In this document: positions 4,847-63,371 of the stretch, piece by piece | How positions within the stretch are numbered: the first letter of the stretch is position 1 | Layout of the letters: each line of letters opens with the position of its first letter | Program-made: the position numbers and the translations under genes | DNA from: Branchiostoma floridae | Taxonomy: Eukaryota; Chordata; Leptocardii; Amphioxiformes; Branchiostomatidae | Reading direction: 5' to 3' | Assembly (NCBI RefSeq): GCF_000003815.2 | Contig: NC_049982.1 | Span: 8,011,825 to 8,075,824, forward strand | Length of the DNA: 64,000 nucleotides | The notes under the pieces: model-generated | Databases searched by the model: none | Told to the model about the DNA's origin: nothing | Seen by the model: the letters and a program-made list of their open reading frames with translations, nothing else

Positions 4847-7800
4847 TTACTGCCCCAAGACCTCCACCCGCATGCTGAGGTGAGAATTCCATGTCTGCGG
4901 CCAGAACCGGACGTAACGTGCAGTTACCGGCGGGTCCAACAGGTGGCGCACTTCGGTGTCCTGATCGTAGTTGCCAGGGAAGACCTGGGGTGATATTGTG
5001 AGAAAATCAGTAATGCTACAAAGAAACAGGTTGTGAAATAAAATCTTTGATGTAACACTGATAAAATGATTTCTTAGACTAACGAAGACCTGAAAATATC
5101 ATATATGACTGTCAGTTCATATTGACTATCATGGTAAAATACTAACTGACATCAGCAATACAGTATTGGCTATGGCTAAACAGTCCTATTCGATAATGAC
5201 AGTCTCTGCTACGCTGCATCTTACATCTGTATCTGTAAGCTGACTTAGGTCTTGATTTGTTATAAACTTCTTTTTCTACGAACGTGGCCTAGTCAGCAAA
5301 ATTTATTGGAAACATAAAAAAATATTCTTGGAAATATCAAACTTGTGCAGAAGGCAATGGTTACCGACCCTCTCACGTCCCAGTTTGTCCAGGTATGTAG
5401 ACCACGTGCTTCCGTCTCTGCTGAAGCGTAGTTTGTAGGAGGTCACCCACTGAATTGACGGACCAGGTCTACCCTGGGTGATAACTCCAGCTACAGTAGT
5501 CTCTGCTCCCACGTCAACCTGAACAGGATTGAAAACGGCATCCTGGTACGGTAGTCTTCGTACATATTCTACATTTGTACCAAGACATATTCTACATTTG
5601 GGTACATACAAGTTTTTCACCCAACATGTGACAACGTAACCAGATTTCACGTAAGTTACACTCAGTCTGACACTGTGTCTGGTTAGATACATCAGGACAT
5701 GATGTTGGCCGTTGTCTACTTTATATAGCTCGTTATTGTTATTACCTCCATGAAATGTCATGGAATGGAGGTTATATTTTCTGTTATGTGTCTCTGTCTG
5801 TGTAGATGATTACTCAAGAACGGCTGGATGGATTGGTTTCATACTTGTTGTGTTGGTGGGGTGTGATGAAAGCTCGAATCGATGAGATCTTGGGAGCCGT
5901 ATCTGTCGTTATAATTGATGTAATAATATCAGAAATCACCCCTATATTTGAGATATATTGGTACAGGCATCGTGCTGTATGTGTTTGTTAATGGCCTTAG
6001 CTGCAAGCAGATAGTGAGGTGACAGCTGTTTGGGGAACCCCCAGTAGTTTTATTTATGTCTGCTTAGGACTGTTTGAAATATTTGTAACAGTTGGCACAG
6101 TAGTTACCTCCATGAAATGTCATGGAGGTTATATTTTCTGTTATGTGTCTCTGTCTGTGTACAAGATTACTCAAGAACGGCTGGATGGATTGGTTTCATA
6201 CTTGTTGTGTTGGTGGGCTGTGATGAAAGCTCGAATCGATGTGATTTTGGACGACGTATCTGTCGTTATAATCGATGTAATAATATCAGAAATCCCCCCT
6301 ATATCTGCGATATATTGGAACATGGGCTTAGCTCCAAGCAGATAGTGAGGTGATTTGTATGACAGTTTTTTGAATATGATAATTAGTTTTATTTATGTCT
6401 GCTTAGGACATCATGGAGATGTGAAGCGTAAGTATAATTGTAAGAAGTTGAGGTACATTTAATGGTAATGCTTAACAGGTATGGATGTCTCACATACTGT
6501 ACTGCTGATTTGAGTGACATGGTGATTAAAATGCCATTAGGTCCTCTCATCTTAGATGGGTTGGGTGTCAGAAGTTTTATGGGCGATACAGATGTTCTGA
6601 TTTCGTTACGATAAGGGACAGTTGTTAGTTGTCTCTTTCGTAGCCAATGGTACTTGTTTTTTAGCAGACGGGGTTGGCACCAAGTATTCATCTTACAGTT
6701 GATGTAGGGCTATCAGAGGAAAGTGTGCATCTCATTTTTGTACCGTGTGAACAGCTGATGTTATGACATATTGGTGGAAAATCAAATCACCATCTGACTA
6801 AAGTTGGCCACATCCCTTCTTTTTTCTGAGTTTCCCAACTTCCTCCCACCACACCGCTCTGAGGCACATAGTCGAACCTCAATAATGCTGACAACCTTAG
6901 ACAGTTTAAATGCCAAACATCAAGCTTAAGGAACACCACGCTACCATATGCCGTCGAACTCTTAAACGCACATTACACAATTAAGTGTCACATTTTAATA
7001 ATTACTAATCAGATGGACATCCTCTGTGTCATTAAATAAATACACCACTACTTTCCCATAACATTTATAACCATTACTCTCAAATACAACCGACTATAAA
7101 CATACATACCATCCACAAAAAAGCAATAAATATTTCATGGAGGTATGAGGTCCCCGAACTCTAGTTTACTTTGATTTATCCCCTCTTTCAACCTCCTTGA
7201 TCAAACGTAAACAGAAAAAGCACAGTATATAAGCATATACAATCAATGGCGGCACGATAAGAAGAAAGAAACAGATTAGAAGACATTGACCGGGGGAAGA
7301 AAAATAATAATGATAATAATAATCATCTGGTGTATTTTGTCAGCCAGTAGGTCGTTACCCAATGTGTTGAGTAATGAGGCCGTTGAACGAGGTCGAGGCA
7401 CCTCCTCGAGTACGGGACCCCCGTTTTACGTCCCTCTCGGAAGACGAATTCGTGGAATGACCATGAAAAGAACCATGCGTCATATGAATCAAGGGCACAA
7501 TTACAAATGATTGGCAATAAACCAAGTTATTTCCCTTGCCGTGAATCTCCCCTTACCTGTAGCCACTGGTTGGTGTTCAGCGGGCCGTTGGCGCACCAAG
7601 CCCCGGCCCATCCACCTTGGTCTGTATAACTCTCTTCCCGGGAATGAAGACGAGCTTCGCTGGTGGCACAATGTGGGTGCGTAGTGGATGCAGTGATGTG
7701 GCCATCAGGAATGGCGCCGCTCTCCATACCCAGTGGTACTGCAGTGCACAGCGGCTACGGAAAATCACGGTGAAATGATGACATTTGACAACATGTATCT

Positions 7801-8048
7801 GTACACGTCACATCGTCCATTCCCAATAGTACAACATGGCCATGGACCAGAGCCTAGTCTGATACGCTAGTAACGGTTGGTGTACGTAGTAACAGTTAAC
7901 GAGGGCTGAAAATGTCCAACCTGTGGGCATGGGCAGGATTGTCTCTCACACCCCCCACATCCGCCAGCCGGCCCGGGAGGCCCGGGAACACCATCACGGC
8001 CGTCCCGCCCGTCTCGTCCGGCCGGTCCCTCAGGACCCCGGAAGAGGC
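4847..8048 (-). CDS. Collagen exon plus complete F5/8 type C (discoidin) domain, 3' part of a gene
   Basis: Four intact exons: collagen 7921-8048 (enters in phase 1), then discoidin exons 7557-7754, 5369-5518 and 4847-4984. They join in frame and end at a TAA. The collagen exon reads [16 protein letters not shown], then [13 protein letters not shown]. The discoidin domain shows the family opening [20 protein letters not shown], the middle [20 protein letters not shown] and the end [11 protein letters not shown]...MRVEVLGQ. The cysteine that usually closes this domain is replaced by Gln at the stop. Discoidin domains typically bind lipids or glycans extracellularly. No membrane-anchor exon 1 or linker exon was found upstream before 21.9 kb. 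The 5' end may be the signal-peptide exons at 14278-14906. The donors after 5369 (GTCGGT) and 7921 (GTTGGA) are weak. Confidence 0.85.
5742..6410. repeat. Two tandem copies of a dispersed repeat
   Basis: About 5742-6070 and 6104-6410 are similar copies, each starting TTACCTCCATGAAATGTCATG and ending TTTATGTCTGCTTAGGAC. They lie in the intron between the first two discoidin exons. A related fragment (CATGGAGGTATGAGGTCCCC) occurs near 7138. Open frames inside are not conserved and do not look coding. Confidence 0.7.
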
Positions 8049-8275
8049 CTGTAACAGTGGAAGTGATCGAAAACAGTTAATATCATTGCCAGCCCGGATA
8101 GAAATATGGCAAAGTTATTCATCAGAAAAAGTACAGGCACAGCCACCGGGTAAAAGACATTTTGGCATTTATCCAATATAGAACGTACCATAATCAAATA
8201 AATGCCAGACAGGGCACCAAACGAGTTGGGCCTAGACCTAAAGAGGTGACCTGTGAAGACCCTGGAAAACAGTCC

Positions 8276-9394
8276 GGTGTGACAGCGATTTCGCCCCCCC
8301 CCCCCCGGGGGGGGAAATCACTAGCGTTTTCGCCCCGGCCCCCTTTAGCGTTTTCGCCCCCCCCCCCCCACCAAGAGCAGCTGGTTACTACATATTACAG
8401 GTGCGCTACCTGGTACTATACTGCACCTGGGGAGTAACGTATATGGTGTGTTACCTGGTACCTATATGGCACCTTATTACCGTACCGTAAGATGTCATAC
8501 CTCGAAAGTCGATACTATATTGTTCGGTGCAAACATGACATTGAAATGAAAAAGACAATTTTTGCAGCTGAGGTGGCATAAAAACAGTGCTACTGCGAAC
8601 GTATAAATCAACACCGTCTATGGTACGGAATACGTCAGCTATGTGTTTTCAATTTGTCACAGTGTTTTCTTTCTTGTGCTGGAAACATGTCCAAAGCACT
8701 AACAAAAACACACGTGAATAATAGTTTCTCATTATAAACACTATCTACGCGCAAGTTGATATAGCTGTTGCTAAATGTTACACAAACACTGGTAAAGTAC
8801 CAGTCTTAAGAAACACGGGTAAATGCATCAGTTCCTAAATACTAGAAAAAACAGTCATGTTGGTGGTGAAGATATCCCTTGGCCAGGTGCATAGACCAAA
8901 ATGTGCTTTTTTCTAATTAATAACAAATATTTGCTTATTTAATAAAGACATTACATAGTTCTTTTGTGGTCACTTCATGGTAGAGACTTCATATTGGAGA
9001 TATATAGGTTGCTTGAGGACAGGTGAATACAATGAAATACATCTTATGTCAAGACTCAGGTATATGCAATAATGGGAATACAAGGGACCCAACCCACCTT
9101 GTCTGAAACAAGTTCAACTATCTTATTACCATGTAATTACGTTAATATTGATACTATGAATTGAGTTATGTATCAAACTCGTGTACTTATATCATTCTGA
9201 AACTGCATTTTGTGATTTATACCAATCAACTTCTAAAATGTCATGTAAACCCGTTTTTTTGGGGGGGGGCGAAATCGCTAAAGGGGGGCGAGGTAGGGGG
9301 GCGAGATCACTAGCCGGGGAGGGCGAGATCGCTAGTGATTTCGCCCCCGGGGGGGCGAGATCACGGGGGGGGGGGGCGAGATCGCTGTCACACC
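8276..9394. mobile_element. Insertion with inverted ends and G/C-run subterminal repeats
   Basis: The left end GGTGTGACAGCGATTTCGCC is mirrored by the right end as GGTGTGACAGCGATCTCGCC on the complement. Inside both ends are runs of C or G and repeated motifs such as GCGATTTCGCCC and CGAGATCACTAG. The left flank matches the equivalent intron of the gene at 39659-42699 (near 41630) up to the insertion. No coding region and no clear target duplication were identified. Confidence 0.65.
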
Positions 9395-10210
9395 TGTCTG
9401 AATAGGGTTAAGGTTCTGAAGCTTCATTGATTACAAATATGCAGAAACATAAACAGACACACCTGTCTTTGCATAGCCCACTCGAACTAAGGGAACGCTC
9501 AGCTACAGATAATGATGTAACCTGACCCTTATCTAGCCTCCTTGTCTAGCCATGGGGAAACAGGCGACAAAATTCTACCAAGGAGCAAACCAATGGCCTG
9601 AGAAATTAACCAAGCAGATGTAGGTGGGGAACATTGTGACCAAACTGGCCCTGCAGCTCATGCAATGGCATGCTGCAAGGGGGCTTAAACTAATACCACT
9701 TCCAACGCACTGAAAGGTATGCGTCTTCGAAACAAAGAAGACCACAGCATGTCCATGCCCAAACGCTCTAAAATAAAAAGGGCCGCCGAGTTTCAAGTTC
9801 AAACACTAGGAGGCCCAAAATCAATTTTGAGCATCAGATCTAGACGACCACCACCAAACCATGTAAAAAATATCATCGCGATCACACGTTTTGTTCTGTA
9901 GATATAGCGCCGGAAACGCCCCTTCAACACACAAAAGGCTATCTGCAGACAGTGCAGTGCCAAGTTTGAACACAAGCAATTCCAAAATCAATCCTGAGCA
10001 TCAGGCAACCACCCTCAATCCTTGTAACAAATATCGTTGCAATCGCCAGAAACGCCCATTCCACACACTCCACGCTACTGAAAACAGACAGCTGTTCCCA
10101 ATTAAGAGAGAGGGAAGACCAGATCACTCCATATCAACAAAAGGGGTTAATATTTATTTTAAAACAACCAAAAAACTGCAACTTCTAATACGCACTAAAG
10201 CACAATGGGG
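9395..10210. other. Non-coding stretch, nothing identified
   Basis: Contains two or three diverged tandem units built on a phrase like CCAAAATCAATTTTGAGCATC (about 9815 and 9980). No gene was supported. Confidence 0.4.
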
Positions 10211-10214
10211 TTAA

Positions 10215-15728: not shown

Positions 15729-15772
<44 letters not shown>

Positions 15773-18600: not shown

Positions 18601-21600
18601 CTTCCCTGCTTGAAAACATCTTCCTGGGAGGTGCATATGTCGTTGCACGTCTGACCGTCCCCGAAACGACTACAATCCCGACGGATGGCGAAGATGTATG
18701 CTCCTCGGTCGGTGACCGCTGTACAGATGCTCTGTGCCAGCATATCACGGTAGTTGTGGTCTGGTTGAGGAAACGTAGAGAAAATGTGGAAGGTGCAAAT
18801 ATAGACAGTAAATCATTCAATATCCATTCAAAGTGTGGAATATCCATAAGCATGGCAACTTAAGCGTGTAGATGGAACAGTACAACACATGTACTGAAAA
18901 TGATTTTGACTACCTACTCCTAGCCTGTTTGCTACATGTATACATGTATACACCTATATCTGAAGTATTTACAAAGCAGCACAAATGTTGAAGTGTATAT
19001 AGACCATGATGCTGTGAACGAGAGCAGGACGCATATGTGGTTACAAATTTAAATATGCAACTTACTCGATCCATTTACTCCAGGTGGTCCGGGTGGGCCC
19101 TCTGGTCCAGGAGGACCCTAGGGACATTTGTGATTAGCTGTAATTTTTCTTTCTTCAAAAAACTCTACATTTACAAATATGTCAGAGAGCACTAGTTGAT
19201 TTATACGGCAGATGATGATGGCGATGCATGGGTCATGCATGTGCTGCTCAAAGTTTGCCAAAATGTGACGCCAAAACAAACTACAGAATTTCAGACCTTC
19301 TTAAGAGCTGTTTTTGACAATATAGATTTTATATTCAATTTTTGCTTCTTGGATTTGGAAACCACAATGGCAACGGGTCACAATGATCATAAAACAACTC
19401 CGCCCAATGTTCAATAATACACAAACCTATGATTAAAATTATGTTTTTTACAGAACGCTTACACAAAAATGTCCTACCTGTTCGCAAGACGGCTCCCCAC
19501 ACCCTCCACATCCGCACGGAGGCCCGGGCGGCCCGGGAACACCATCACGGCCGTCCCGCCCGTCTCGTCCGGCCGGTCCTTCAGGACAGCGGAAGGGACC
19601 TGCTAAATTTGAATATCTACACTGTTTATCATTAGCGACAAAAGGATATTGATGAAAGTGCGTTTCATGTCGCCACTTTTTAACAAAATGAAAGTACAAA
19701 TGTACGTACGGAGACCTGAGGGTCTACGTCGACGAGCAATTAAACTTAACGAAAACGTAACATAAAAATTTTCCGATACTGCAATAGAAAACGTAACACA
19801 ACACAACAACTATATATCGTGAATTTGACACAAGACGTATGTCAAGTACAGTGCAAGTGTGCTGACAGTGCAAGCTTCGAGTCTAAGAACGCGAAAATTG
19901 TGAATAATGACAAAAAGAAATGTTACATAAACACGCACTTTCAACGGAATCGTTGGATCGCCTGTACCTCCGCAAGGTGGCGTTGTGTTCAGGGACACCG
20001 TCAACTTGGTTCGACTTTATAAAAAAAAGCAGATTTAGGCTTTTTGTTTAGCTGCTTGTCTTGGCTCTTGAATGTTCCTAATTGCTATAACATCTCAAGA
20101 AGGCAATAAAACAGGGAACCATTGGCCTAAACATTTGCCGCAAACCACGTTACATCCGCTGTATGTTGATAGCATTTCAGACACACAAGAACACTAGAAA
20201 GGCCGACATTTGCTTGAGAGCAAATACAGCATATTTCAGCCATCTCCCTCCCCATGCAACAGTAGACAGTTCTAAAATCACCCATGTGTGAAAACGGAAC
20301 ACTTCTGCTTAAAAATCACTTTTACTAAGCACAGTTTAGTCCAAAAAGGAATCTTAAAGAAATACCCCGTGCAAGAATGGACTCTTTCAGTGCACCCCAT
20401 TGGAGCTTTCACAATAGACCAGTCTAGAAATGCTCCCGCTGAAAACATGGCCTTTGAATCAGAAACCCAGTCCAAAATTAGACTCAGCAAAAGAGTCCCC
20501 CCGTGCATGAAAAGGTAAAATAGACCAGTCTAAAAACACTTCAATCTGCTAAAAATAAAATTTTGAATCATCACCCATCCATCCTGAATTTGAAAAAATC
20601 CCCCTCCGTCCAAGAATGGACACTTCCTGTGATACCCCTATGTAAAATGGACCAGTGCAAAAATACATCCTCTAAAATAGGACTTTGACATAGTCATGAA
20701 GTCCAAAAATTATTCCTTTTGTAAGAATGCCCCCCTCCGTGCAAGAATGGACTATTCCATCATATCCCATGTAAAATTGCAAAATAGACCAGTCCAAAAA
20801 TACTCCCACTAAAAGACTTTACATAATCATTGGTCCAAATATGAATTTAAAAATAAAAATTAACCCCTCCGTGCAGGAATGGACTCTTCCAGATATATAC
20901 AGGCTCGCTGATTGGCTGCCGTAACCTACTCAGAATATTAAATCAGCCTACACGAATGGTTGCCAAATAGGTCTTGTATAGACATGTACACGTGCAGTCT
21001 GCAGGTGGAGGGTCAACGACCTTGAGGTCATTGACCTCTCTGGCCATTTGAAAATGACCACAAAATCCCAAAATATATCATTTTGAAGTGATTTATGCCA
21101 AAAATTATACATAGGTCATTTGGATAAATATCAAGAGCACCCCTTTACCAAATTTCAGGTCATTTGGTTGTGAAACGGGGGTACAGGAGCCAAAAATGTC
21201 CTATTTTTGACAAAAAATGGCCAAAAAATCGCAAAATTAAGCATTTTGTTGTACTGTATGCCCAATTGTTGTTGAATCCATGTGCGCATATGTAAAGGGC
21301 ACTCCTATACAAAAATTTAGGTCATTTGGTTGTGAAACGAGGGTACAGGAGCCAAAAATGTCCTTTTTTGTAAAAAAAATGACCAAAAGTCACAAAATTA
21401 AGCAATTTCTTGTACCATATGCCAAAACTGTTATTGAATCTATGTGGGCATATTATTAAAGCATCTCTTTACCAAATTTTAGGTCATTCGACTGTAATAC
21501 CAGGGTACAGGGAGCCAAAATATACATAAAAATTGCCAAAAACCTCAATAAAATCATTTTAAAGGCAGATATGAAAAAAATGAAAAAAACGTCTAAGGGT

Positions 21601-22399
21601 ATTAGCCCACTCTACCTTTGTGCGAAATTTCAGGTCATTCGGTCCAGGAACGACAGAGATAACGTGTTCCGAAGATTTGACAGGAGAAAGAAGAAAGAAG
21701 AAACATTACGAATACAATATATTTCACCATACCTATGGTATGGCTGAAATATAAAAATCTCTATTTTCTTCTAACTACAGACCTAATGCCGAGATGTTAA
21801 GGCTAAGAAGCCAGTGTTGTTATGGGGTTAACAGGGGCATATTCACGGTTCATTGAACTTACAGCCATGTACTGTCAGATTTTACTTGCGTGTTGTAGCA
21901 AGCCACTGGCAAAAAATACCTCTCGAAAGTTGTGTTCCTCAGCATGCCCGAGTTGGACCTTGGTTTCCAGCACAGCCAGTCTCTCCCTCAAAGCCGCCCC
22001 GTCAGCTTTCTCCTTCTGTAACTCCGCACGTTCGCTGTCTAGTTGAGTCTTCAGGGACGACAGTTGGATTTTCAGGGCCGTTATTTCCTCCTTGTGCGAG
22101 AACGCTTCCTCCTTGTCTCCAGTAGCGGCGCTTTACTTGATCTCCATGGCCAAGGTACGATCCTTCAGCGTCAGGATCTGATCTTTCAGTTGAGACACTT
22201 CTTGGGAGCAGTGAGACACGTCTTGCGAGGACTTCTCACGGACATGCTTAACTTCGTGAGCGAGGAAGACGAGGGCCGCCACCACCAGCACCCCCGCTCC
22301 GGCCGCCACGGCCACCGTCACCGGTCGGGCCGCGCCGGATCGGTCTCGGCGGGCCCGGCCGGCAACTTCGCTTACGTGAAGAAGCTTCTCAGAGCTCAT
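18601..22399 (-). pseudogene. Broken type 2 receptor gene (collagen plus Cys-rich domain)
   Basis: Recognisable exons: exon 1 21920-22399, linker 19939-20014, collagen 19478-19599, second collagen 19066-19117, first Cys-domain exon 18601-18760. Four lesions are visible. Exon 1 has an in-frame TAA at 22133-22135, where other copies read CAAGAC after MEIK. The linker lacks its first three codons. The collagen exon reads FRCPEG where others have FRGPEG, breaking the Gly-X-Y register. The terminal exon encoding CGPNYCCCRVR is absent: downstream of 18600 is type 1 3'UTR sequence (compare 2480-2650). If translated, the nonsense codon would leave the anchor and a short stalk of about 88 residues. 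The RYRR furin-type site persists in the linker. Confidence 0.8.
21080..21640. repeat. Diverged tandem repeats of about 165 bp in intron 1
   Basis: The phrase GGTCATTTGGTTGTGAAACG, followed by GGGTACAGGAGCC, recurs near 21160, 21322 and, diverged, near 21482. It sits in intron 1 of the type 2 pseudogene. The block 20280-20900 also repeats a phrase like GTGCAAGAATGGAC. Neither looks coding. Confidence 0.55.
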
Positions 22400-24305: not shown

Positions 24306-27300
24306 TTACTGCCCCAAGACCTCCACCCGCATGCTGATGTGTCCAGTCCATGTCTGCGGCCAGAACCGGACGTAACGTGCAGTTACCAGCGGGTCCAACA
24401 GGTGACGCACTTCGGTGTCCTGATCAGTGTTGCCAGAGAAGACCTGGGGTGGTATTGTGAAAAATACAATGCGGAAAAGTGCAGAAAAATAGGTGTGTTG
24501 CACATTGTTGATGTCGGCCGAGGTACATAACCCAACATCTTGTTGGAGATATCCAAATTACCGAATGTCCAAGACTTGCCGAACGCCAAAACAACCGGGG
24601 ACCTGTTCCCCAATACCATGAAACTAGGGTAACTCCTGAAAAATCACATTAGTTACACAAACAGCTATGGTGTGATATGTGCATCATCTCGCGCAAACGG
24701 GTAGGCGACGCGCTAAAGTACATCCGAATGCAGCAAATGGATCGTGAGATACAGCTACGAATAGCATAGCAACCCCAACTACAATACTCCGTCAAGAGGT
24801 GATCCTCCTTCACAGAGTAAAAACATTCTTGGAAATATCAAACTTGTGCAGAAGACAATGATTACCAACCTTCTCACGCCCCAGTTTGTCCAGGTATGTA
24901 GACCACGTGCTTCCGTCTCTGCTGAAGCGTAGTTTGTAGGAGGTTACCCTTTGTAGATAAGTGTCGCTGGACCTACCCTGGGTGATAACTCCAGCTACAG
25001 TAGTCTCTGCTCCCACGTCAACCTGGACAGGAGGAAAACGGCATCCTGGTACGTTATTCAGGGTACCTATTCTACTTTTGTATCTGTACATATTCTACAT
25101 TTGCGTCAAGTTTTTCACCCAATATATTAACAACGTAAGTTACGTAACCAGGTCTCACGTACATTCACGGTGTCTTGTTAGATTCTCCGGGATATGGTGT
25201 TAGTCGTTGTCTTCTAATAAATATTTATTGTATCTTATAAAAACTATATCAAACTGTTGTTCAAACATAAACAGAAAATGCGACAGTACATAGCCACTAC
25301 AACCAATGGCAGCAAAAATGAAAGAAACTGGTCAGAAGATGTTAGCCGGGGGAAGAAGAATAATTTGACGAAAGGAACCAAAGAATATAACGACAGTCAA
25401 ACATATGAATCAAGGGCACAATTACAAAGCAAGTTGCACCGTGCGGTGGTCCTCTCACCTGTAGCCACTGGTTGGTGTTCAGCGGGTGTGCGGCACACCA
25501 GGCTCCGGCCCATCCTCCCTGGCTTGTGAGACTCTCCTCCAGGGAATGAGGACGAGCTTTGCTGGTGGCACAATCCGGGTGTGTAGTGGATGCAGTGATG
25601 TGGCCATCAGGAATAGCGCCGCTCTCCATACCTAGTGGTACTGCAGTGCACGATTGCTACATACAGGATGTGACATTGGTGGTAGAGGTCATGTCATTCA
25701 ATATCCATTGATCCACATACGGTGCAACATCCATTTCGCATTGCCCAAGACCCCGATACAACAGCTACACATGTCTCTGTTATGGCAAACTGTTTAACAA
25801 AGGTTACTAGCGAACACTATGTCTAAAGCTTGTCTATGTCTAAGTTCCACGTAGGTTGATGTAACTTAAGTTTACTGATTATATCGATTCCAAATAAAAT
25901 GTTCGCCTCAAGCTGAAGCTCGTTAGCACAAGAACAGGTCACCTTGCTATATGACAATAACTACAGTACTGTACGCACCAGACAGGATTGTCCTCCACAC
26001 CCTCCACATCCACCAGCCGGACCGGGAGGACCCGGCGGACCGGGAGCACCATCACGGCCGTCCCGCCCGTCTCGTCCGGCCGGTCCTTCAGGGCCTAGGA
26101 AGGGACCTGGGCAGCAGTAAGGTTTACCATTACTTAACAAAAATACTTAACAAAAATACATGATCACAAAATGCACTATCATATACTAGTAGCGTTAAAT
26201 TTTTGATGGTATCAGACGAGATGGAATAACAATAAGGACAATCTCCACTCTGGCACTATCGTAGTCAACTTTCTCGCGAAAATGGAACAGACAGGTGACC
26301 ATTAACGGTTACCTGTGAAGTAACCACCGATCAACGTCTATGTATCCCTGGTGCATTAAAAAACCCATAGGAATTGAGTAATGTCTTCCCACCTAAGCCG
26401 TAGGGTGTTGTGACGGTGTTGGCCGCTCTCTTGGACCGCCGCATGGTGGCGCTGTGATCTCCGGCATGCTTGACATCATCACTGACTTGACTCGGTTTCA
26501 CATCGGTGTCAGTCTCCTGTTGTATTAAAAATGTTCAAAACTTTACTCCGCATCCGCACTTATAGGTTCCATAAAGCACACTGTGGTTATGTCCTTGAAA
26601 TTATCCTGCGAAGGACAGTTGTTTTAGTCCAGTCAGGTTTCATCCAATCAGAGATCCGTGTGCATGCATCATGTGTACCGTTTGGTACCGGCCGGTTACG
26701 TTGTCATGATTACACATTGCGATAAAACAAGGAAAGGGTTTAGGGCATACTTCAACTACAAATGAAGTGTTTCCAAGTTGATTTATAGCTTGTCTTCTGA
26801 GCAGTCTGGTAGTAGAAAGTAGCCATTTTACTTTCTGCATGTTGTTCCCAACTTCCAGTCACGCGTTATTTTGTCAAGTCTCTGGAATCAAGCCTTAACT
26901 GACTTAACTCGACAAGTCTAAGTCGGCCTTACCACTCATGCTTATGATTGTAACATTGTGCAAACGTACCACACATTATCATGATGCTACTTTCAGACAG
27001 TTTATGTAAACCATCTCCCCTATTATTCCACATCATCACCGCACACATCGACACAGTTCACTGCGTACAGCTATCTAAAGTAGAAAAAACAGACATGTCG
27101 AGTTTTTGCCCGAGGCAGGTTACCTGTCATGAGGTGTGGGTGACCCAACCTGCCCAATTATCCGTGGTGTTCATGTGTATGATATATATAGTCAGAACGT
27201 ATTTTTGTTTTTGAGAAAATATGAGACAATTGTAGTTCTGAACGCTATCATATTGCTTCCCTGGCGATGGTGAAATTTAGCGTAAAGTGAGGGAGAGGTT

Positions 27301-28002
27301 AATGTAAGCTTTACAAGTTGATTGGATGCTGACACAGACATATCCAAAACCTGAGATTATACCGTTGTAGCTTAAATCTGGTATATTTGACAACATAACC
27401 GAACCTGAATATAAAAAGACTGAAGAACTTTCAATTATAGCTCACTATGATGTGATGTTGTCAACAGGGAGGCCGCTAATGTTATGGAAGCACTGAGAAG
27501 AATTTGTGCCCCCCCTTACCTCATGAGATGTTTCGTACGTTGGTTCTTGTTCGTTTTCGACACCGAGTTGGAACTTGGTTTCCAGCACAGCCAGTCTCTC
27601 CCTCAAAGACGCCCCGTCAGTTTTCTCCTTCTGTAACTCAGCCTTGAGAGACGACATCTCCGCACGTTCGCTGTCTAGTTGAGTCCTCAGAGACGACAGT
27701 TGGATTTTCAGGGCCGTCACTTCCTCCTTGTCTCCAGTAGCGACGTTTTGCTTGATCTCCATGGCCAATGTACGATCCTTCAGCGCCAGGATCTGGTCAT
27801 TTGCCTTCGCTAGTTGATCTTGCAGTTGACTTGCGTTCTTTCGCACATGCTTGACCTCGTGAGCGAGGAAGACGAGGGCCGCCACTACCAGCACCCCCGC
27901 CCCGGTCGCCACGGCCACCGTCACCGGTCGGGCCGCGCCGGGTCGGTCTCGGCGGGCCCGGCCGGTAACTTCGCTTACGTTAAGCAGCTTCTCCGAGCTC
28001 AT
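24306..28002 (-). CDS. Type 1 receptor: membrane anchor, coiled coil, furin site, collagen, F5/8C domain
   Basis: Exons: 27520-28002, 26393-26516, 25979-26106, 25459-25656, 24870-25022, 24306-24443, giving 407 residues with all phases matching. Residues 1-26 form a basic cytoplasmic tail (RARRDR), 27-47 the transmembrane helix and about 50-150 a heptad-rich coiled coil. The linker exon carries MRRSKRAAN, a furin consensus (RSKR, about 188-191). The collagen exon has [20 protein letters not shown] followed by Cys-Gly motifs. The remainder is a discoidin domain with an extra Cys pair (HPDC...GAWC) and the end MRVEVLGQ. The basic tail before the helix predicts type II orientation. Compared with other exon 1 copies the stalk carries a distinct LQDQLAKAN segment. 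The product is expected to trimerise at the cell surface and may be shed. Ligand is unknown. Confidence 0.88.
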
Positions 28003-29628: not shown

Positions 29629-29988
29629 CTAGCGAACGCGACAGCAACAGTAGTTTGGTCCGCAGCTGGGATGGGCACAGCCACCATGATAGCGATATGC
29701 GGCAGGGCCAACTTTTCCAGCGTCAGTGTTGTGGTCGGATGAAAGGACAGGCCGACCTCCGTACACATGTATGGCATCAAAGCACTCTGAGGTGCTGTGG
29801 AAAAGAAATCATCATCAACAAATCATGATACTAACGTTATATATCATATAGTGGCTAAATGATCACACATACGCGCGCGCGCACACACACACATGCGCAT
29901 ACACACACACACACATATATGCACATACACACACACACACATGTACACACATAAATATTGCATATATAGACATATGTCTATATATATT

Positions 29989-30051
<63 letters not shown>

Positions 30052-42600: not shown

Positions 42601-42699
42601 CACCGCCACGGCCACCGTCACCATTCGGGCCGCGCCGGGTCGGTCTCGGCGGGCCCGGCCGGCAGCTTCGACAACGTATGCAGCCTTCTCCGAGCTCAT
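39659..42699 (-). CDS. Chimeric type 1 receptor: type 2-style exon 1 and linker with an F5/8C head
   Basis: Exons: 42286-42699, 41846-41939, 41218-41348, 40861-41037, 40228-40374, 39659-39796, giving 366 residues in consistent phase. Exon 1 begins [15 protein letters not shown], followed by the transmembrane helix and a shorter stalk ending [13 protein letters not shown]. That ending and the linker ([16 protein letters not shown]) belong to the class otherwise found in type 2 genes, yet the head is a discoidin domain. The RYRR furin-type site lies near residues 157-160. The collagen exon is [20 protein letters not shown] then SGGCGGC. The discoidin middle exon has a shortened variable loop (GRAGADQW) and reads LDNLGRDR. 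Its donor is the weaker GTCGGT. The domain ends VLGQ without the usual closing Cys. The 5' flank is also of the type 2 class. Confidence 0.87.
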
Positions 42700-46732: not shown

Positions 46733-49700
46733 TTACTGCCCCAAGACCTCCACCCGCATGCTGACGAGATGATGCCATGTCTGCGGCCAGAACCGGACGT
46801 AACGTGCAGTTACCGGCGGGTCCAACAGGTGGCGCACTTCTGTGTCTCGATCAAAGTTGCCAGAGAAAAGCTGGGATGATATTTTGAAAAGAAAAACAAT
46901 AACAATGAACCGGCTACCAGCAATGCTACACGGAAACGAATGGGAAAATCTTTGCAGTAACACATAATTGATTTATTAGACTAAAGAAGAACACGTACAT
47001 CTACATACCCTGAAATATAAGAAGAAACTCTATCTAATCTGGAAAAAAAATCATATATGACTTCTGTCAGTTCATGTCAACTATGGTAAAATCCTAGTTA
47101 ACATCAGCCCTACAGTATCGGCTATAGCTTATTAGTCCTCTTTTAGAATGACAGTCTCTGCTACGCGGCATCAGTTACATCTGTAAGCTGTCTCAGGTCT
47201 GTTGCAAATGTCTTTTTCTGCAAAAGTTGACTAGTCAGCAAAATTTATTGAAAACATTAAAAAATTCTTGGAAACATCAAACTTGTGCAGAAGACAATGA
47301 TTTATAATACCAACCTTCTCACGTCCCAGTTTGTCCAGGTATGTAGACCACGTGGTTCCGTCTCTGCTGAAGCGTAGTTTGTAGGAGGTCACCCATTGTT
47401 GAAAAGTGTCACTGGACCTACCCTGTGTGACAACTCCAGCTACAGTAGTCTCTGCTCCCACGTCAATCTGGACAGGAAAAACACGTAACAGTTAACACTG
47501 AGAAGCGTCAGCGGTACAAAACGCCTGCGGTGTTCAATATGCCGTCCGTAGTTGCATGATTTAAGTGTGATTGGTCAACTTTGAAACTTAAATTGGAGAA
47601 TGTCCATGCTGACATTTGAACCCATATCTTCTGCTTTTTTATGTTTTTCAAAAAACCACAAAGGGAACACAAATAATTAGAAAATGCTAAAATAAAAATA
47701 GATAACTGCATGAATCTGCGTCAACAAATATCAAACAAGTGGCTGTCGGCGGAGCTAGGTTACGCCTGGGAGGGAGCGAGAAAGCGAGCACTGGATAGAA
47801 GAAAGTGGAGGAGAAACAAGAAGGGTGTGCTAGTACTTGTATTATGATGATGAGGATGCAAAAACATGCCAGAAGATGTGCATGACACAGGACAAAAATG
47901 ATTTGATATGATAAAAAAGTATAACCTACACCCTGCAGCCTCTACTTACCTGTAGCCACAGCTGGTTGTTGAATTGTGCACACCAGGCTCCGGCGCCCAC
48001 CTGGGAATGAAGGCGAGCTTTGCTGGCGGCACAACTGCCAGCATTGACCTGACTGGATGCCGTAATGTGGCCATCAGGAATAGCGCCGCTCTCCATACCC
48101 AGTGGTACTGCAGTGCACTGCTGCTATATACAGGGTGTAACATGTATTTACTGGTGGTAAAGGTCACGTCATTCAATATCCATTGCCCCATACGGTGCGA
48201 CATCCATTACCCATTGCCCAAGACCCCAGTACAACAGCTACACATGTCTCTGTCATGTCAAACTGTTAAACAAAGGTTACTAGCCAACACTATGTCTAAA
48301 GCTTGCCTATGTCTAAGTTCCATGTAGATTGATGTAAGTTTACGGATAATATCGATTCCCAAAAAATTTGTTCGCCTCAAGCTGAAGCTGATTAGCACAA
48401 GAACAGGTCACATTGCTATATGACAATAACTACAGTACTGTACGCACCAGACAGGATTGTCCTCCACACCTTCCACATCCACCAGCCGGACCGGGAGGCC
48501 CGGGCGGACCGGGAACACCATCACGGCCGTCCCGCCCGTCTCGTCCGGCCGGTCCCTCAGGACCACGGAAGGCACCTGTGACAATTGCATTGAGGTTTAT
48601 AGTTACTTAACAAAAATACATGATCACAAAATGCACTATCATATACTAGTAGCATAATTTTATAATGGTGTCAGACGAGACGGAATAACAATAAGGACAA
48701 TTTCCACCCTGGCACTATTGTAGTCAACTTTCTCGCGAAAATGGAACAGACTAGTGACCATTAAAGGTTACATGTGAAGTAACCACCGACCAACGTCTAT
48801 TTATTCCTGGTGCGTTCAAAGTTTATAGGAAAGAACCCATGCCTGCCTACCTAAGCCGTAGGGTGTTGTGATTGTGTTGGCCGCTCTCTTGGACCGCCGC
48901 ATGGGGGCGCTGTGATCTCCAAGCTTGACGTCATCACCAACTTGACTCGGTTTCACATCGGGGTCAGTCTTCTGTTGTAAAATATTCAAAATTTTACTCC
49001 GCATCCGCACTTATAGGTTCTATAAAGCACACTGTAGATACGCCATTCTACTTTCTCCATGTTGTTCCCGACTCCATCACGCGTTATTTTGTTAAGTCTC
49101 TGGAATAAAGTTTTGCTCTTTTACCCCTCCCTAACTCGACAAGTCTAAGTCGGCCTTGCCACTCATGCTTATAACTGTCTAAATGCCACACAAATTATCA
49201 TGATGCTACTTTCAGACAGTTTATGTAAACCTTCTCCCCTATTATTCCACATCATCACCGCACACATCAACACTGTTCACTGCGTACAGCTATCTAAAGT
49301 AGAAAAACCAGACATGTCCGAGTTTTTGCCCGAGGCAGGTTACCTATCATGAGGTGTGGGTGATCCAACCTGCCCAATTATCCGTGGTGTTCATGTGCAT
49401 GATATATATATAGAGTCAGAACTTATTGTTGTTTTCGAGAAAATATGAGACAATTGCAGTTCTGAACGCTATCACATTGCTTTCCTGGCGATGGTGAAAT
49501 TTAGCGTAAAGTGAGGGAGAGGTTAATCATTTAATGTAAGCTTAAGCTTTACAAGTTGATTGGAGGCTGACACAGACATGTCCAAAACGTGAGATTGTAC
49601 CATTGTAGCTTAAATCTAGTATGTTTAACACCATAAACTGGTCTGAATATAAAAAGACTGAAGAACTGTTAACTAAAGCTCACTATGATGTAATGCTGTC

Positions 49701-50241
49701 AACAGGGAGGCGGGGAGTGCTATCGAAGTTCTGAGAAGAATCTATGCTAACCCCTTACCTCGTGAGAGGTTCCGTAGGTTGCTTCTTGTTCATTTCCAAA
49801 TCCGAGTTGGAACTTGGTTTCCAGCACAGCCAGTCTCTCCCTCAAAGACGCCCCGTCAGCTTTCTCTTGCTGCAACTCCGTCTTGAGAGACGAGACCTCA
49901 GCACGTTCGCTGTCTAATTGAGTCTGCACAGACGACAGTTGGATTTTCAAGGCCGTCATTTCCTCCTTGTGACAGGACGCCTCTTCCTTGTTTCCAGTAG
50001 CGGCGTCTTGCTTGATCTCCATGGCCAAGGTGCGATCCTTCAGCGTCAGGATCTGGTCTTTCAGTTGAGCGGAGTTCTCACGGACATGCTTAACTTCGTG
50101 AGCGAGGAAGACGAGGGCCGCCACCACCAGCACCCCCGCCCCGGCAGCCACGGCCACCGTCACCGGTCGGGCCGCGCCGGGTCGGTCTCGGCGGGCCCGG
50201 CCGGTAACTTCGCTTACGTTAAGCAGCTTCTCCGAGCTCAT
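46733..50241 (-). CDS. Type 1 receptor: membrane anchor, coiled coil, furin site, collagen, F5/8C domain
   Basis: Exons: 49759-50241, 48851-48971, 48448-48575, 47950-48123, 47315-47467, 46733-46870, giving 398 residues, all in phase. Exon 1 is [15 protein letters not shown], the transmembrane helix ([20 protein letters not shown]) and a coiled coil ending EATYGTSHE. The linker contains MRRSKRAAN, a furin consensus. The collagen exon is [10 protein letters not shown], then [20 protein letters not shown]. The discoidin domain has variable positions [20 protein letters not shown] and WHHLVS against an otherwise nearly constant framework, and ends VLGQ. It enters with IDVGAE instead of VDVGAE. 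The neighbour to the left is the chimeric type 1 gene. The neighbour to the right is a type 2 gene. Confidence 0.88.
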
Positions 50242-51668: not shown

Positions 51669-54895
<3,227 letters not shown>

Positions 54896-56380: not shown

Positions 56381-56507
56381 TCTGGGTATAAATGCCTGAT
56401 AACTTCTGCACAAATGAAGTTGCTAACGTTACATTTGTATTGTTATATTGTATCATCTCCTGCGTACATGCATTAGTAAAATATTTTCTAAATACAGTAT
56501 AGTAGCT

Positions 56508-57522: not shown

Positions 57523-60500
57523 TTACTGCCCCAAGACCTCCACCCGCATGCTGATGTGTCCAGTCCATGTCTGCGGCCAGAACCGGACGTAACGTGCAGT
57601 TACCGGCGGGTCCAACAGGTGGCGCACTTCGGTGTCCTGATCAGAGTTGCCAGCGAAGATCTAGGATCAGGATGGTACATGTATTGTGAACGAACAGCCT
57701 ATCAGAAACACCGTACATAAGAATCAACGTTGTTGGAAGACATAATATGACACACACAATTTCTAATACTGAATTAGAACAATTACAATATTTACTTTAG
57801 ATTGAATGACTATTCATACCTACAAGTGCGAGAGAAAACTTTATCAATTCTGTAACGTTAACTACGTACATACTGTAATTAACTTGATTATGTATGACAA
57901 CGGTTACCAACCTTCTCACGTCCCAGTTTGTCCAGGTATGTAGACCAAGTGATTCCATCTCTGCTGAAGCGTAGTTTGTAGGAGGTCACCCTTTGTGGAT
58001 AGATGTTACTGGACCTACCCTGGGTGATAACTCCAGCTACAGTAGTCTCTGCTCCAATGTCAACCTGGAGAGGAAAAAAAAACACGTCGTCCTGGGAAAA
58101 GTGAGCGGCATAAGACCTTTTAAAATTGTTGCCAATCTCGACTTAAGTGTGATTGGTCAATTATTAAGATTAAGAAGTATAGAATCTTAATTGACACTCG
58201 TTGAGAATAAGAAACATTCCAGAAGATGGCACGGGAAAATTATTTTATATGAATACTGTAAATGCATTTAATTTCGCGGTAGCGGGAAAAATTATTTTTC
58301 GCGGTGGATTTAAGTTCGCGGTAACACCACAGACTGCAGTCTAATACCATAATAGAAAAATGTTCGCAGTGGTTTTAAGTTCGCGGTGAAGTGGTCACCG
58401 CGAAAACCGCGAACATTAATCCACCGCGAACATTTCTGCATTTACAGTATGTGAAAAAGAATCAAGCAAGGATTAGCAAGCAAACGGCTCTACCCTGCAG
58501 CCTCTACTCACCTGTAGCCATTGCTGGTTGTTGTTCTGTCCAGCGCACCAGGATCCGGTGCCCTCCTGGGAATGAAGGCGAGCTTTGCTGGCGGCACAAA
58601 TGCCAGTAGTGTACTGACTGGATGCAGTTATGTGTCCATCAGGAATAGCGCCGCTCTCCATACCTAGTGGTACTGCAGTGCACGGCTGCTACATGCAGGA
58701 TGTGACATGACTGATGATAAACATAATGTCATGATACCATCCATTATTCCATCACCCATGTGGTATATATTCCTAAAACATTCGCCTCGCCGACTCAGGT
58801 TCGATAGCACAAGGACACGTCACGTTAACATGCCATAATAAGTACAGAACGTATCTACCTGTTGGCAAGGTTGTCCTCCACACCCTCCACATCCACAAGC
58901 CGGCCCGGGAGGCCCAGGCGGCCCGGGAGCACCATCACGGCCGTCCCGCCCGTCTCGTCCGGCCGGCCCTTCAGGACCCCGAAAGGGACCTGGGATATTT
59001 GCAGTGAGGTTTATAGTTACTTTTAAGGAAATACATGATCGCACCTTTTAAGTTAACCATGAACAAAATACACTATCATATACATATATTAAAAGTTAAT
59101 GTTGTCAGACGAGACGGAATACCAATAATGACAATTTTCTTCGGAATTCGATATAGTCAAGTGGAAGTCAATTCCACTCTGGCACAATTATAGTCAACCT
59201 TTTCGTGAAAATGCAACATATTTCTAACATGATTACTTGTGATTAACCACGGACCACTCGTCTTTTTATTCCCGGTGCATTTAATGATTATCGGAAAGAA
59301 CCCATGCCTGCCCACCTAAGCCGTAGGGCGTTGTGACAGTGTTGGCAGCTCTCTTGGACCGCCGCATGGGGGCGCTGTGATCTCCAAGCTTGACGTCATC
59401 ACCAACTTGACTCGGTTTCACATCGGGGTCAGTCTCCTGTTGTATAACGTACAAAATTTTACTCCGCATCCGCACTTATAGGTTCCATGTAGCACACCGT
59501 AGTTACGCCATTCTACTTTCATCATGTTGTTCCCGACTCCATCAGGCGTTATTTCTTTAAGTCTCTGGAATCAAGTTTTGCTCCTTTACCCCTCCCTAAC
59601 TCGACATGTCTAAATCGGCCTTGCCACTCATGCTTATAACGTTAATTGTATAAACTTACCACACATATTATCATGATGCTACTTTCAAATAGTTTATGCA
59701 AACAAGCTCCCATATTATTCCACATCATCACCGCACACATCAACACTGTTCACTGCGTACAGCGATCTAGAGTAGAAAAACCAGACATGTCCGAGTTTTT
59801 GCCCGAGGCAAGTTACTTGTCATGAGGTGTGGGTGATCCAACCTGCCCAATTATCCGGGGTGTTCATGTGCATGATATATATAGTCAGAACTTATTGTTG
59901 TTTTCGAGAAAATATGAGACAATTGCAGTTCTGATCTAATACATTGCTTCCCTGGCGATGGTGAATTTTAGAGTAAATTGAGGGAGAGGTTAATCTTTTG
60001 ATGTAAGCTTAAGCTTTACAAGTTGATTGGAGGCTGACACAGACATATCCAAAACGTGAGATTGTACCATTGTATCTTAAATCTGGTATGTTTAATACCA
60101 TAACCTACCTGAATATTAAAAGACTGAAGAACTTTTAACTAAAGCTCACTATGATGTGATGTTGTCAACAGTGAGGCCGGTAGCTATGGTGTTATCGAAG
60201 CACTAAAAAGAATCTATGCTAACCCCTTACCTCGTGAGAGGTTCCGTAGGTTGGTTCTTGTTCATTTCCAAATCCTAGTTGGAACTTGGTTTCCAGCACT
60301 GCAAGTCTCTCTCTCAAAGACGCCCCGCCAGCTTTCTCTTGCTGCAACTCCGTCTTGAGGGACGAGACTTCGGCACGTTCGCTGTCTAGTTGAGTCTGCA
60401 GAGACGACAGTCGGATTTTGAGGGCCGTTATTTCCTCCTTGTGCGAGGACAGTTGGGTTTTCAGGGTCGTCACTTCCTCCTTGTGCGAAGACGCTTCCTC

Positions 60501-60767
60501 CTTGTCTCTTCCGGTGGTGTCTTGCTTGATCTCCATGGCCAAGGTACGATCCTTCAGCGCCAGGATCTGATCTTTCAGTTGAGACACTTCTTGAGAGGAC
60601 TTCTCTCGCACATATTTGACCTCATGAGCGAGGAAGACGAGGGCCGCCGCCACCAGCACCACCGCCCCGGCCGCCACGGCCACTGTCACCGGTCGGGCCG
60701 CACCGGGTCGGTCTCGGCGGGCCCGGCCGGTAACTTCGCTTACGTTAAGCAGCTTCTCCGAGCTCAT
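57523..60767 (-). CDS. Type 1 receptor with the longest coiled-coil stalk
   Basis: Exons: 60231-60767, 59316-59436, 58859-58989, 58512-58688, 57912-58064, 57523-57660, giving 418 residues in consistent phase. Exon 1 (179 codons against 138-161 in the other intact copies) has [12 protein letters not shown], the transmembrane helix and a stalk with an internal SSHKEE repeat, indicating a heptad-unit duplication. The linker carries MRRSKRAAN (RSKR near 205-208), the furin consensus. Collagen exon: [10 protein letters not shown], then [20 protein letters not shown] and CGCGGC. The discoidin head has variable stretches ASSQYTTGIC, GRSSNIYPQR and WTGHIS, and ends VLGQ. The last exon starts IFAG after a CTAG acceptor, whereas most others start VFSG after CCCAG. 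The intron between the first two discoidin exons holds a small MITE. Confidence 0.88.
58254..58449. mobile_element. Foldback MITE with CGCGGT-rich arms
   Basis: Starts TACTGTAAATGCA and ends TGCATTTACAGTA. The arms contain repeated TTCGCGGT / ACCGCGAA. Flanking TA on both sides fits a TA target if the element is taken as CTGTAAATG to CATTTACAG. It lies in a discoidin intron of the gene at 57523-60767. Equivalent introns in other copies lack it. Confidence 0.8.
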
Positions 60768-62832: not shown

Positions 62833-62838
62833 TTTATT
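62833..62838 (-). terminator. Probable polyadenylation signal for the partial gene at the right edge
   Basis: AATAAA on the complement in the conserved 3'UTR block, 0.4 kb past the stop at 63234. The 3'UTR is shorter than in the paralogues. Confidence 0.45.
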
Positions 62839-63233
62839 TATGAGTATGATTTTTACTTCAAACTGCAAAGCAGATATGAGCTTTGGAAATCTCCAAGTGT
62901 GCATGCTGTGTCTAGTCACCGGTGCAGTCCCTACAGAGGAGAACAAAAATGATTCGTTGTTAAGTGCATCAGTGAAAATCTTTTTGCAATGTCGTCATTG
63001 GCACATTGTAGTGTCTAGTGACCCATAGCTCAGCAAGTTTCCTTGCTACTTCTTTAGGGAATTCTATGGGGTATTCAGGAAGCGAAGAGGTTGCTTGCAC
63101 CTCCTCGAACACTGACCATATTTCATGTCTTTTCTAAAGACGTGTGAAGCCCAAGATGCCCTTTCCCGGATTAATTCAGAACCGCGCTTTAAGGGAAGTC
63201 ACAAGGAAAGAACAGAAAACTCTAATATTGGAC

Positions 63234-63371
63234 TCACTGCTCCAAGACCTCCACCCGCATGCTGATCCAAGAATTCCATGTCTGCGGCCAGAACCGGACG
63301 TAACGTGCAGTTACCAGCGGGTCCAACAGGTGGCGCACTTCGGTGTCTCGATCAGAGTTGCCAGAGAAAAC
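63234..63371 (-). CDS. Last F5/8C exon of another type 1 receptor, gene cut by the window edge
   Basis: The exon encodes [34 protein letters not shown] and the end MRVEVLEQ with a TGA stop; paralogues end LGQ with TAA. The next exon toward the 5' side would be expected just right of 63980. Conserved intron sequence runs to about 63975 (CAGAAGACAATGATTAC) and then departs from the paralogues exactly where the splice donor should be. The rest of the gene is outside the window or disrupted. Confidence 0.75.
   Translation of the reverse strand, partial: VFSGNSDRDTEVRHLLDPLVTARYVRFWPQTWNSWISMRVEVLEQ

Follow-up and report, generated by a model that had tools for sequence, protein, structure and literature searches.

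The DNA analysed here, referred to as the window, is a stretch of 64,000 nucleotides from Branchiostoma floridae. It holds six complete genes, four with an F5/8C head and two with a Cys-rich (Cys) head, together with five broken or cut units, and every module lies on the minus strand. In-phase AG and GT sites are found at every exon boundary of the complete genes (g11-g16, 6/6).

Gene content of the window and of the array

The four complete F5/8C genes are g11 (57523..60767), g13 (46733..50241), g14 (39659..42699) and g16 (24306..28002). The exons of g11 encode the anchor and coil (60767-60231), the linker (59433-59316, with RRSKR), the collagen segment (58989-58859) and the head (58685-58512, 58064-57912 and 57660-57523). 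The corresponding exons are 50241-49759, 48968-48851, 48575-48448, 48117-47950, 47467-47315 and 46870-46733 in g13; 42699-42286, 41939-41846, 41348-41218, 41034-40861, 40374-40228 and 39796-39659 in g14, where the F5/8C head is placed on an RYRR-type stem; and 28002-27520, 26513-26393, 26106-25979, 25656-25459, 25022-24870 and 24443-24306 in g16. The first Cys gene, g12 (51669..54895), has exons at 54895-54458, 54101-54008 (linker, RRYRRS), 53623-53502 (collagen), 52980-52569 (second collagen, 138 amino acids of G-X-Y) and 52276-52114 and 51837-51669 (head). The other, g15 (29629..36999), has exons at 36999-36523, 32417-32327, 31275-31163, 30869-30818, 30509-30347 and 29794-29629.

Among the remaining units, g17 (18601..22399) is a broken Cys-head unit whose anchor holds an in-frame TAA and whose last (second) Cys exon was not found. 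For the F5/8C-head unit g18 (4847..8048; collagen 8048-7921, head 7754-7557, 5518-5369 and 4984-4847) no anchor or linker exon was found. Only the last head exon of the F5/8C unit g10 (63234..63371) falls within the window; its anchor, linker and collagen exons lie to the right, neither of its other head exons could be located, and 4,364 intervening bases are N. The leftmost F5/8C head ends with base 4847, and the last exon of the rightmost head starts with base 63371. An earlier sequence-only reading had listed the heads in the order F5/8C, Cys, F5/8C, Cys, F5/8C, F5/8C, Cys, F5/8C, F5/8C, and the nine head groups follow exactly this order; among them, g17 is broken, g18 has no anchor or linker found and the right edge contributes one exon only. 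Two further lone anchor fragments are present at 2989 (2747..2989) and 821 (546..821).

The window is one slice of an array of about 308 kb on a single contig, and a separate copy of the same architecture is found on another contig. In this assembly the whole array counts 45 units and 42 anchors. Strictly intact models were obtained for 26 genes (19 F5/8C and 7 Cys), besides which g1 is intact and bears a pentraxin head. The 18 of the 45 units without an intact model have mixed causes, being broken, lying over N runs or failed by the model-building script alone. GT donors (130/130) and AG acceptors (130/130) are present throughout the 26 strict models, but as the script demanded GT/AG, this means that in-phase sites exist and is not proof of their use. 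Splice phases are constant within each head class in these models.

For some units a single anchor might have two alternative splicing partners, its own Cys head and a downstream F5/8C unit lacking an anchor, giving alternative 3' ends. Such anchorless collagen and F5/8C units (g18, g24 and g36) do come after Cys-head units (g17, g23 and g35) on the same strand, and the acceptor phase of their collagen exon is the same as in complete genes. We nevertheless regard this arrangement as very unlikely, as most heads have an anchor of their own and the anchor of the block in the window (g17) holds the stop codon. The Cys-side stretches of the three cases moreover have duplications in common (2.7-8.5 kb, 96-97%), and the three are therefore probably one event that was copied.

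A common stem and unrelated heads

All six complete genes of the window have the same stem layout, consisting of a predicted type II anchor, a coil, a furin-type site and a collagen exon carrying a ten-residue motif ([10 protein letters not shown]). That intact members have these parts in common was borne out beyond the window, as both the furin-type motif RX[KR]R (a sequence motif, with putative cleavage) and the ten-residue motif are present in 26/26 intact array genes. A single hydrophobic span, starting at residue 27-29 and with net +3 ahead of it, is likewise found in all 26 and gives the predicted topology. The stem exons end in phase 0, 1, 0 in 26/26 strict models; this rule had been proposed for the array everywhere and does not extend to g1 and g3, both outside the window, where the collagen exon exits in phase 1.

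Relative to g13 the coil exons carry 70 indels, of which 32 are of 7, 14 or 21 residues and 17 of 2 residues. The heptad signal of g13 was reached by 6/2000 shuffles, and it is weaker in g12 (117/2000) and g15 (66/2000). F5/8C genes have one short collagen exon and Cys genes two, the globular head coming next. The additional G-X-Y exon of the Cys genes, 18-150 residues long, had not been noticed in the earlier reading. A Pfam Collagen match had been expected and was formally not obtained: the collagen exon of g13 scored 16.6 bits against a cut-off of 27.2, although its G-X-Y run is plain. The g13 stem matched no PDB chain to E=0.01, a weak test given how little signal there is in coils and in a short collagen segment, and no class A scavenger receptor family was present among the Pfam matches of g13 to E=1, again a weak test. 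The dN/dS ratio was 0.47 for the anchor exon, and the cytoplasmic part is less constrained (0.91).

The predicted Pfam match of the F5/8C head was obtained: the spliced g13 protein matched F5_F8_type_C with E=1.5e-31 over profile positions 2-127 of 127, i.e. the whole domain. Among the 60 matches listed for the head against PDB chains, E ranged from 9.2e-57 to 7.5e-22, with snake pseutarin C at the top. Variation among the F5/8C heads is concentrated in the loops that, in the C2 domain of factor VIII, make up the ligand face, with a mean column entropy of 0.99 in three spike windows versus 0.33 elsewhere, a difference reached by 0/169 circular shifts. The scaffold is conserved, with dN/dS = 0.28. 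Synonymous divergence is also raised in the loops (dS 0.49 vs 0.13 in the scaffold), and the raised loop dN is therefore not a clean sign of positive selection. Simple positive selection on all loops is unsupported, because 25/169 shifts reach the combined-loop pN/pS and dN/dS exceeds 1 in loop 1 only (2.01; its pN/pS was reached by 7/159 windows).

The F5/8C domain is common to the array heads, the factor V/VIII C domains, the neuropilin b domains, lactadherin and the DDR discoidin domains. Factor V/VIII-type domains have membrane-docking hydrophobic spikes, whereas the array heads have polar, variable residues or gaps there. In the 8 of 24 heads inspected, the equivalents of M2199/F2200 and L2251/L2252, which we take to be the hydrophobic spikes docking factor VIII C2 on membranes, are deleted or polar. 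For this reason we do not favour reading the F5/8C heads as phosphatidylserine receptors.

The Cys head gave no Pfam match to E=1 in any of 12 members, and its profile matched nothing in PDB better than E=0.62. Single-sequence matches to a ribonuclease inhibitor (7.5e-5, with no stretch passing alone) and to lacto-N-biosidase (0.029) vanished when the profile was used, and both candidates were rejected. Constraint on this head is weaker than on the F5/8C scaffold, with dN/dS = 0.69. The array thereby brings to light a conserved Cys-rich domain without a Pfam match.

The 26 strict models all end in an F5/8C or a Cys head, as had been claimed for all intact members, but two further heads are found outside the window. 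The intact gene g1, 57 to 61 kb to the right of the window, matches Pfam Pentaxin with E=9.4e-40 over positions 5-190 of 194 (the whole domain), and its head is 83% identical over the second exon and 66% over the first to a copy on contig C3. In g3 a fourth, EGF-associated head was captured, which is now frameshifted and has up to 76% identity to copies 0.74-0.78 Mb away. The intact head types thus number at least three: F5/8C, Cys-rich and pentraxin.

Exchange of heads between stems

For the 19 intact F5/8C genes, the stem tree is rejected by the head data and the head tree by the stem data (AU p 0.001 in each direction, delta lnL 783 and 434). Mutual rejection is also seen between the tree of the first head exon and that of the other two head exons. 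Best-match painting of five genes identified g4, g12 and g27 as mosaics. Up to the collagen exon g12 is 96-100% similar to g43 and after it 91-100% similar to g26/g33/g29; the switch points of both g4 and g12 are at the collagen exon, and that of g27 is in the intron between the first and second F5/8C head exons. The top two partners of stem and head are disjoint in 10/26 genes, and in three of the 26 (g2, g4 and g15) the best stem partner bears the other head class. The Cys gene g15 groups with the F5/8C gene g4 in the coding tree, and in blastn its stem region is closest to the F5/8C genes g8/g32 (96% in the top stretch). The tree conflict and the mosaic genes show that stems and heads have been re-paired by recombination, which agrees with the proposal of a tandem array of type II collagenous genes with exchanged heads.

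Unmerged haplotypes and mis-joined repeats in the assembly could in part imitate both the copy number and the mosaicism. The array contains N runs, and identity in its longest duplicated blocks is 95-98%. Partners of at least 1 kb at 97% exist for 16% of the array and 27% of the window. Such block identity fits unmerged haplotypes of a very heterozygous animal, and copy number may therefore be inflated. At 99.5%, however, partners of at least 1 kb cover just 2% of the 308 kb array and 0% of the window, the copies vary in order and content, and the mosaic g4 is 81-96% similar to its best partners, which is far from allelic. Taken with the copy of the architecture on another contig, an artefact of this kind seems to us highly improbable as an explanation.

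The intron 5' of the collagen exon could be aligned in 15/133 F5/8C-Cys pairs and the intron 3' of it in 0/133 (250 bases examined). Together with the switches of g4 and g12, this confines homologous exchange of stem and head between the classes to the collagen exon or to positions before it. The suggestion that a crossover in any intron would leave an in-frame gene is thus compatible with the intron switch of g27 within the F5/8C heads, but between classes it is too broad. Homogenisation of the hinge by gene conversion is unsupported, as between-class pS of the collagen exon core (0.208) is not below that of the anchor exon (0.181).

Possible function and related systems

Our preferred explanation, which we hold to be probable, is that the array encodes sheddable trimeric recognition receptors in the germline, which owe their diversity to the exchange of heads around the collagen exon and are used in innate immunity. 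Each gene would give a type II protein with a short basic cytoplasmic tail, one span, a parallel coiled coil, a furin-type site, a short collagen helix with the ten-residue motif closed by a Cys cluster, and a C-terminal head. Coil and collagen would join three chains into a three-headed receptor, which may remain cell-bound or be released in a soluble form resembling a collectin. While the stem is kept, the heads would be varied by three routes. Genes are duplicated in tandem and lost; neighbours recombine and so re-pair stems and heads, for which the GC-rich, near-identical collagen exon is the site in two genes or more; and heads are captured from elsewhere, as suggested for the pentraxin and EGF-associated domains. 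The F5/8C heads vary further at the ligand-face loops on the conserved scaffold. Most likely the receptors would serve to recognise diverse surfaces, whether non-self or altered-self.

In layout the genes resemble class A scavenger receptors, as the earlier reading had recognised. These receptors are type II (PMC7848082) and have a cytoplasmic tail, a membrane span, alpha-helical and collagenous domains and usually a C-terminal recognition head (PMC4491621). SR-A, MARCO, SCARA5 and SCARA4/collectin-12 are matched in the predicted type II span and in the alpha-helical and collagenous domains; they bear an SRCR or C-type lectin head, or none, where the array has F5/8C, pentraxin or an unnamed Cys-rich domain. 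The furin-type linker of the array is not among the features given in PMC4491621, and the tandem arrangement with head exchange is a feature of the array. Colmedins/gliomedin and ectodysplasin are also type II, with a collagen stalk, a C-terminal globular head and release of the ectodomain (PMC7848082). The array likewise has a predicted type II span, collagen stalk and globular head, but the olfactomedin head of colmedins and the TNF-like head of ectodysplasin are not among its Pfam matches.

The MACIT collagens (XIII/XXIII/XXV) have in common with the array the type II orientation, the coil and, between the span and the collagen, a furin-type site, placed in MACITs directly ahead of the first collagen domain (PMC4678570; PMC7848082). 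The MACIT ectodomain is largely collagenous with a conserved C-terminal end, whereas the array genes have one or two short collagen exons and then a globular head, and Tu et al. report no MACIT in Branchiostoma floridae or B. belcheri (PMC4678570). The products could instead be matrix or adhesion proteins, gliomedin- or collagen-XIII-like and furin-shed, serving tissue assembly, epithelial coats or feeding mucus, with heads diversified by neutral birth and death. Layout and furin-type site fit MACITs, which like colmedins are shed (PMC4678570; PMC7848082). The dN/dS ratio is also below 1 everywhere measured except in one loop. We still consider a structural role unlikely: it is unusual for a structural protein to exist in some 40 copies whose unrelated heads have been exchanged and whose variation is focused on the ligand face, and the captured pentraxin head suggests recognition.

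Germline-varied recognition proteins of lancelets include the amphioxus VCBPs (PMC13428168), which consist of Ig-like domains and a chitin-binding module and, unlike the array genes, have no collagen stem. Among the matches listed from the open-licence literature we found no description of a membrane family combining collagen and F5/8C domains or of such a lancelet array, which is weak evidence of absence.

Returning to innate recognition as the preferred function, we tentatively propose, as a possibility short of an even chance, that this is a head-exchange locus. The trimeric sheddable stem would be a germline platform on which unrelated heads (F5/8C, Cys-rich, pentraxin and EGF-associated) are swapped through the collagen-exon hinge, discoidin loops would vary, and the head repertoire would be individual-specific, like that of other germline-diversified immune loci. 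In vertebrates, the known collagenous receptors of the membrane that differ in their ends come from a few separate genes (SR-A, MARCO, collectin-12, gliomedin). In the lancelet some 40 versions lie together at one locus; they carry three or more intact types of head, and the traces of re-pairing are clear. Should this locus serve immunity, the origin of head choice on collagenous receptors would become testable, as would the question of whether recombination at a shared exon serves as a device of germline diversification.

Extent of the array and gene models

The assembly searched comprises 513,431,437 bases in 431 contigs, and the anchor exon was matched at 50 places, some being pieces of one anchor. 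All except one lie on the minus strand at C4:7.831-8.136 Mb (C4 being NC_049982.1). The remaining match, C12:6767140-6767631, at 28% identity, is the sole anchor-like match beyond the array in this search. The collagen exon was matched at 44 places, 42 of them inside the array. Besides the window, which spans C4:8011825-8075824, we examined C4 7,810,001-8,010,000 and 8,075,001-8,145,000; a gap of 1,824 bases separates the left flank from the window, an N run of 4,364 bases lies immediately to its right, and further N runs occur in the array.

Grouping left 42 anchors, or 45 units (g1-g45, numbered right to left) once anchorless units were counted apart: 28 with an F5/8C head, 13 with a Cys-rich head, two with other heads and two lone anchors. 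A strict model, i.e. all exons present with AG/GT borders, in frame, with an ATG and one stop, was passed by 26 units (19 F5/8C and 7 Cys), or 27 with g1. The other 18 are partly broken, partly placed over N runs and partly (e.g. g28 and g9) rejected by the script only. Splice phases are 0,1,0,0,0 in all 19 F5/8C genes and 0,1,0,1,2 in all seven Cys genes.

Gene models and copy counts come from the genomic sequence of one individual. Some copies could be unmerged haplotypes: identity is 95-98% in the longest duplicated blocks, and a partner of at least 1 kb at 97% exists for 16% of the array and 27% of the window (2% and 0% at 99.5%).

Searching with module sequences (tblastn) placed all modules of the window on the minus strand, running from g10 to g20 from right to left, in the order of heads that the sequence-only reading had given. 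Six genes are complete. In g11, g13, g14 and g16 three exons encode an F5/8C head; in g12 and g15 a second G-X-Y exon is followed by two exons for a Cys-rich head. The first residues of the g12 Cys head are uncertain, because two in-frame acceptors, six bases from each other, are available for its first exon. The unit g10 is cut by the window edge, leaving a single exon inside; g17 is broken, with a TAA in the anchor and no last exon found; neither anchor nor linker was found in g18; and g19 and g20 are lone anchors. The long first intron of g15 holds a 578-codon open frame (33813-35549, minus, the same strand as g15). In it, some 40 units of a 30-base (10-residue) repeat precede a part that by eye resembles C2H2 zinc fingers, and the frame may be a nested or inserted gene.

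A collagen and F5/8C unit without a detected anchor stands behind a Cys-head unit three times (g17/g18, g23/g24 and g35/g36, at C4 ~8.03, 7.99 and 7.90 Mb), and either duplication of a pseudogene block or alternative 3' ends could account for this. In g23 and g35 (C4:7997834 and 7905970) the first and second collagen exons are seemingly fused into a run of 21 letters, which would fit deletion of the intervening intron. In the anchorless g36, the first head intron holds a long tandem repeat (L008-L009, C4:7889308-7894942); its period is ~1.3 kb and its identity 99.9% over a 4.3 kb stretch.

The stem and its exchange between heads

The first 50 residues of all 26 intact genes contain a single strongly hydrophobic stretch, whose best 19-residue window has a mean hydropathy of 2.56-2.99; the net charge is +3 ahead of it in every gene and below +3 in the next 15 residues in 25 of them. 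This stretch and the charges on its two sides predict an N-in, type II topology. Among 70 anchor-exon indels relative to g13, those of 7 residues (16 indels), 14 residues (15) and 21 residues (one) have lengths that would be expected if the heptad register is kept; 17 others are of 2 residues. The heptad signal is clear in g13 (reached by 6 of 2000 shuffles), but those of g12 (117) and g15 (66) are not decisive. Seventeen intact genes carry the furin-type motif as RYRR and nine as RSKR. Among the models listed, all except g27 have a Cys cluster after the collagen exon; g27 is intact by rule, yet a deletion shifts its collagen exon to another frame and the cluster is lost. Kinship of the stem was searched for with one gene, g13, in Pfam and by PDB sequence search.

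RSKR (LA) and RYRR (LB) stems are each paired with both F5/8C and Cys heads, LA carrying a Cys head in g2 only; the pentraxin head of g1 and the fourth head, of g3, both sit on LA stems. In AU tests on the 19 intact F5/8C genes, the tree of the stem and that of the head are each rejected by the alignment of the other part (p 0.00106 and 0.00094), and head exon 1 and exons 2-3 conflict in the same way (p <1e-30). Best-match painting covered five genes (g2, g4, g12, g14 and g27), among which g12, g4 and g27 are mosaics. The first matches g43 at 96-100% up to the collagen exon and g26/g33/g29 at 91-100% beyond. Along the g4 stem a Cys gene is best in most windows (84-96%) and F5/8C genes in three anchor-exon windows; from within the collagen exon on, F5/8C genes are best (81-93%). 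The partners of g27 are g13/g34/g37/g30 (88-100%) through the first head exon and following intron, and g14/g31/g45/g7/g38 (87-99%) after that intron. The top two stem and head partners are disjoint in 10 of 26 genes, and the best stem partner belongs to the other head class in three (g2, g4 and g15).

Over 250 bases, the intron before the collagen exon is alignable in 15 of 133 F5/8C-Cys pairs and the intron after it in none of the 133, which places the stem/head junction at the collagen exon, the meeting point of exchangeable stem and class-specific head. The 66-base core of this exon has 80% GC, and its ten-letter collagen motif is near-identical in all 26 genes. Between-class pS is 0.208 in the core, no lower than the 0.181 of the anchor exon, so that these data locate the hinge but do not explain it.

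Variation in the heads

Twenty-four F5/8C heads (24 distinct proteins, with the stem intact or not) were aligned to factor VIII C2, using residue numbers that agree with the full-length chain among the PDB matches. With a gap counted as a letter, factor VIII 2195-2202, 2213-2224, 2249-2254 and 2314-2317 take in most of the 25 most variable columns. M2199/F2200, V2223 and L2251/L2252 are what we take to be the C2 spike residues. Mean entropy is 0.99 in three windows around them versus 0.33 elsewhere, a difference reached by none of 169 circular shifts; this contrast is a description and no blind test, because the windows were set after the variability of the first head exon was known and the four loops after the entropy result.

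In the F5/8C heads the scaffold has a dN/dS of 0.28 and the loops one of 0.63 (0.31 and 0.70 in 167 close pairs); synonymous divergence is likewise higher in the loops, and their pN/pS was reached by 25 of 169 shifts. Loop 1 alone has a dN/dS of 2.01 and the top pN of 159 windows, its pN/pS being reached by seven of these, loop 1 included. A set of old, divergent loop versions that exchange has kept and spread would explain these values as well as positive selection would. For the Cys head, dN/dS is 0.69 (66 pairs, 12 heads).

Further heads, outside relatives and proposed working

The head of g1 (anchor C4:8136494) is a pentraxin domain (Pfam, E=9.4e-40), and with two further exons g1 gives an open protein of 452 residues with phases 0,1,1,0. 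A pentraxin on C3 shares 83% identity with the second head exon of g1 and 66% with the first. Pentraxin exons akin to this head gave 136 matches on many contigs (e.g. C5, C2 and C14) at 25-83% identity, g1 itself aside, and look like a large, mobile domain family. The fourth head, in g3 (anchor C4:8125000), has no Pfam match and is preceded by what by eye is an EGF remnant. Relatives of this head occur at C4:8.86-8.90 Mb, with 47-76% identity, and on C2, C7 and C362; at L030, the only relative inspected, an EGF-like ORF lies ahead by eye. The g3 copy is probably not functional, since it is frameshifted near the end relative to L030.

The stem and Cys architecture exists beyond the array too: in L028 (C3:28.96 Mb; C3:28959001-28968000, minus), a diverged relative, the Cys head follows an MSSEK anchor, a KRAKR linker and a ten-letter collagen stretch of its own. 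Because linker and collagen form one continuous open exon there, gain or loss of the array intron between the two is probable. By eye, an ORF resembling a signal peptide shortly precedes the Cys head at L029 (C11), where no collagen was seen and an N run lies further 5'; at L031 (C3:18.63 Mb), likewise by eye, no collagen exon was seen in the ~5.5 kb upstream of the Cys head.

Judged by gene anatomy, coil and collagen would hold the chains as a trimer, and the receptor would be membrane-bound or shed, with the head outward. The head and its ligand face are the varied part and the stem is the kept part, a pattern that we read as the signature of a recognition family. Of the possible roles, we put innate recognition first and matrix or adhesion second.
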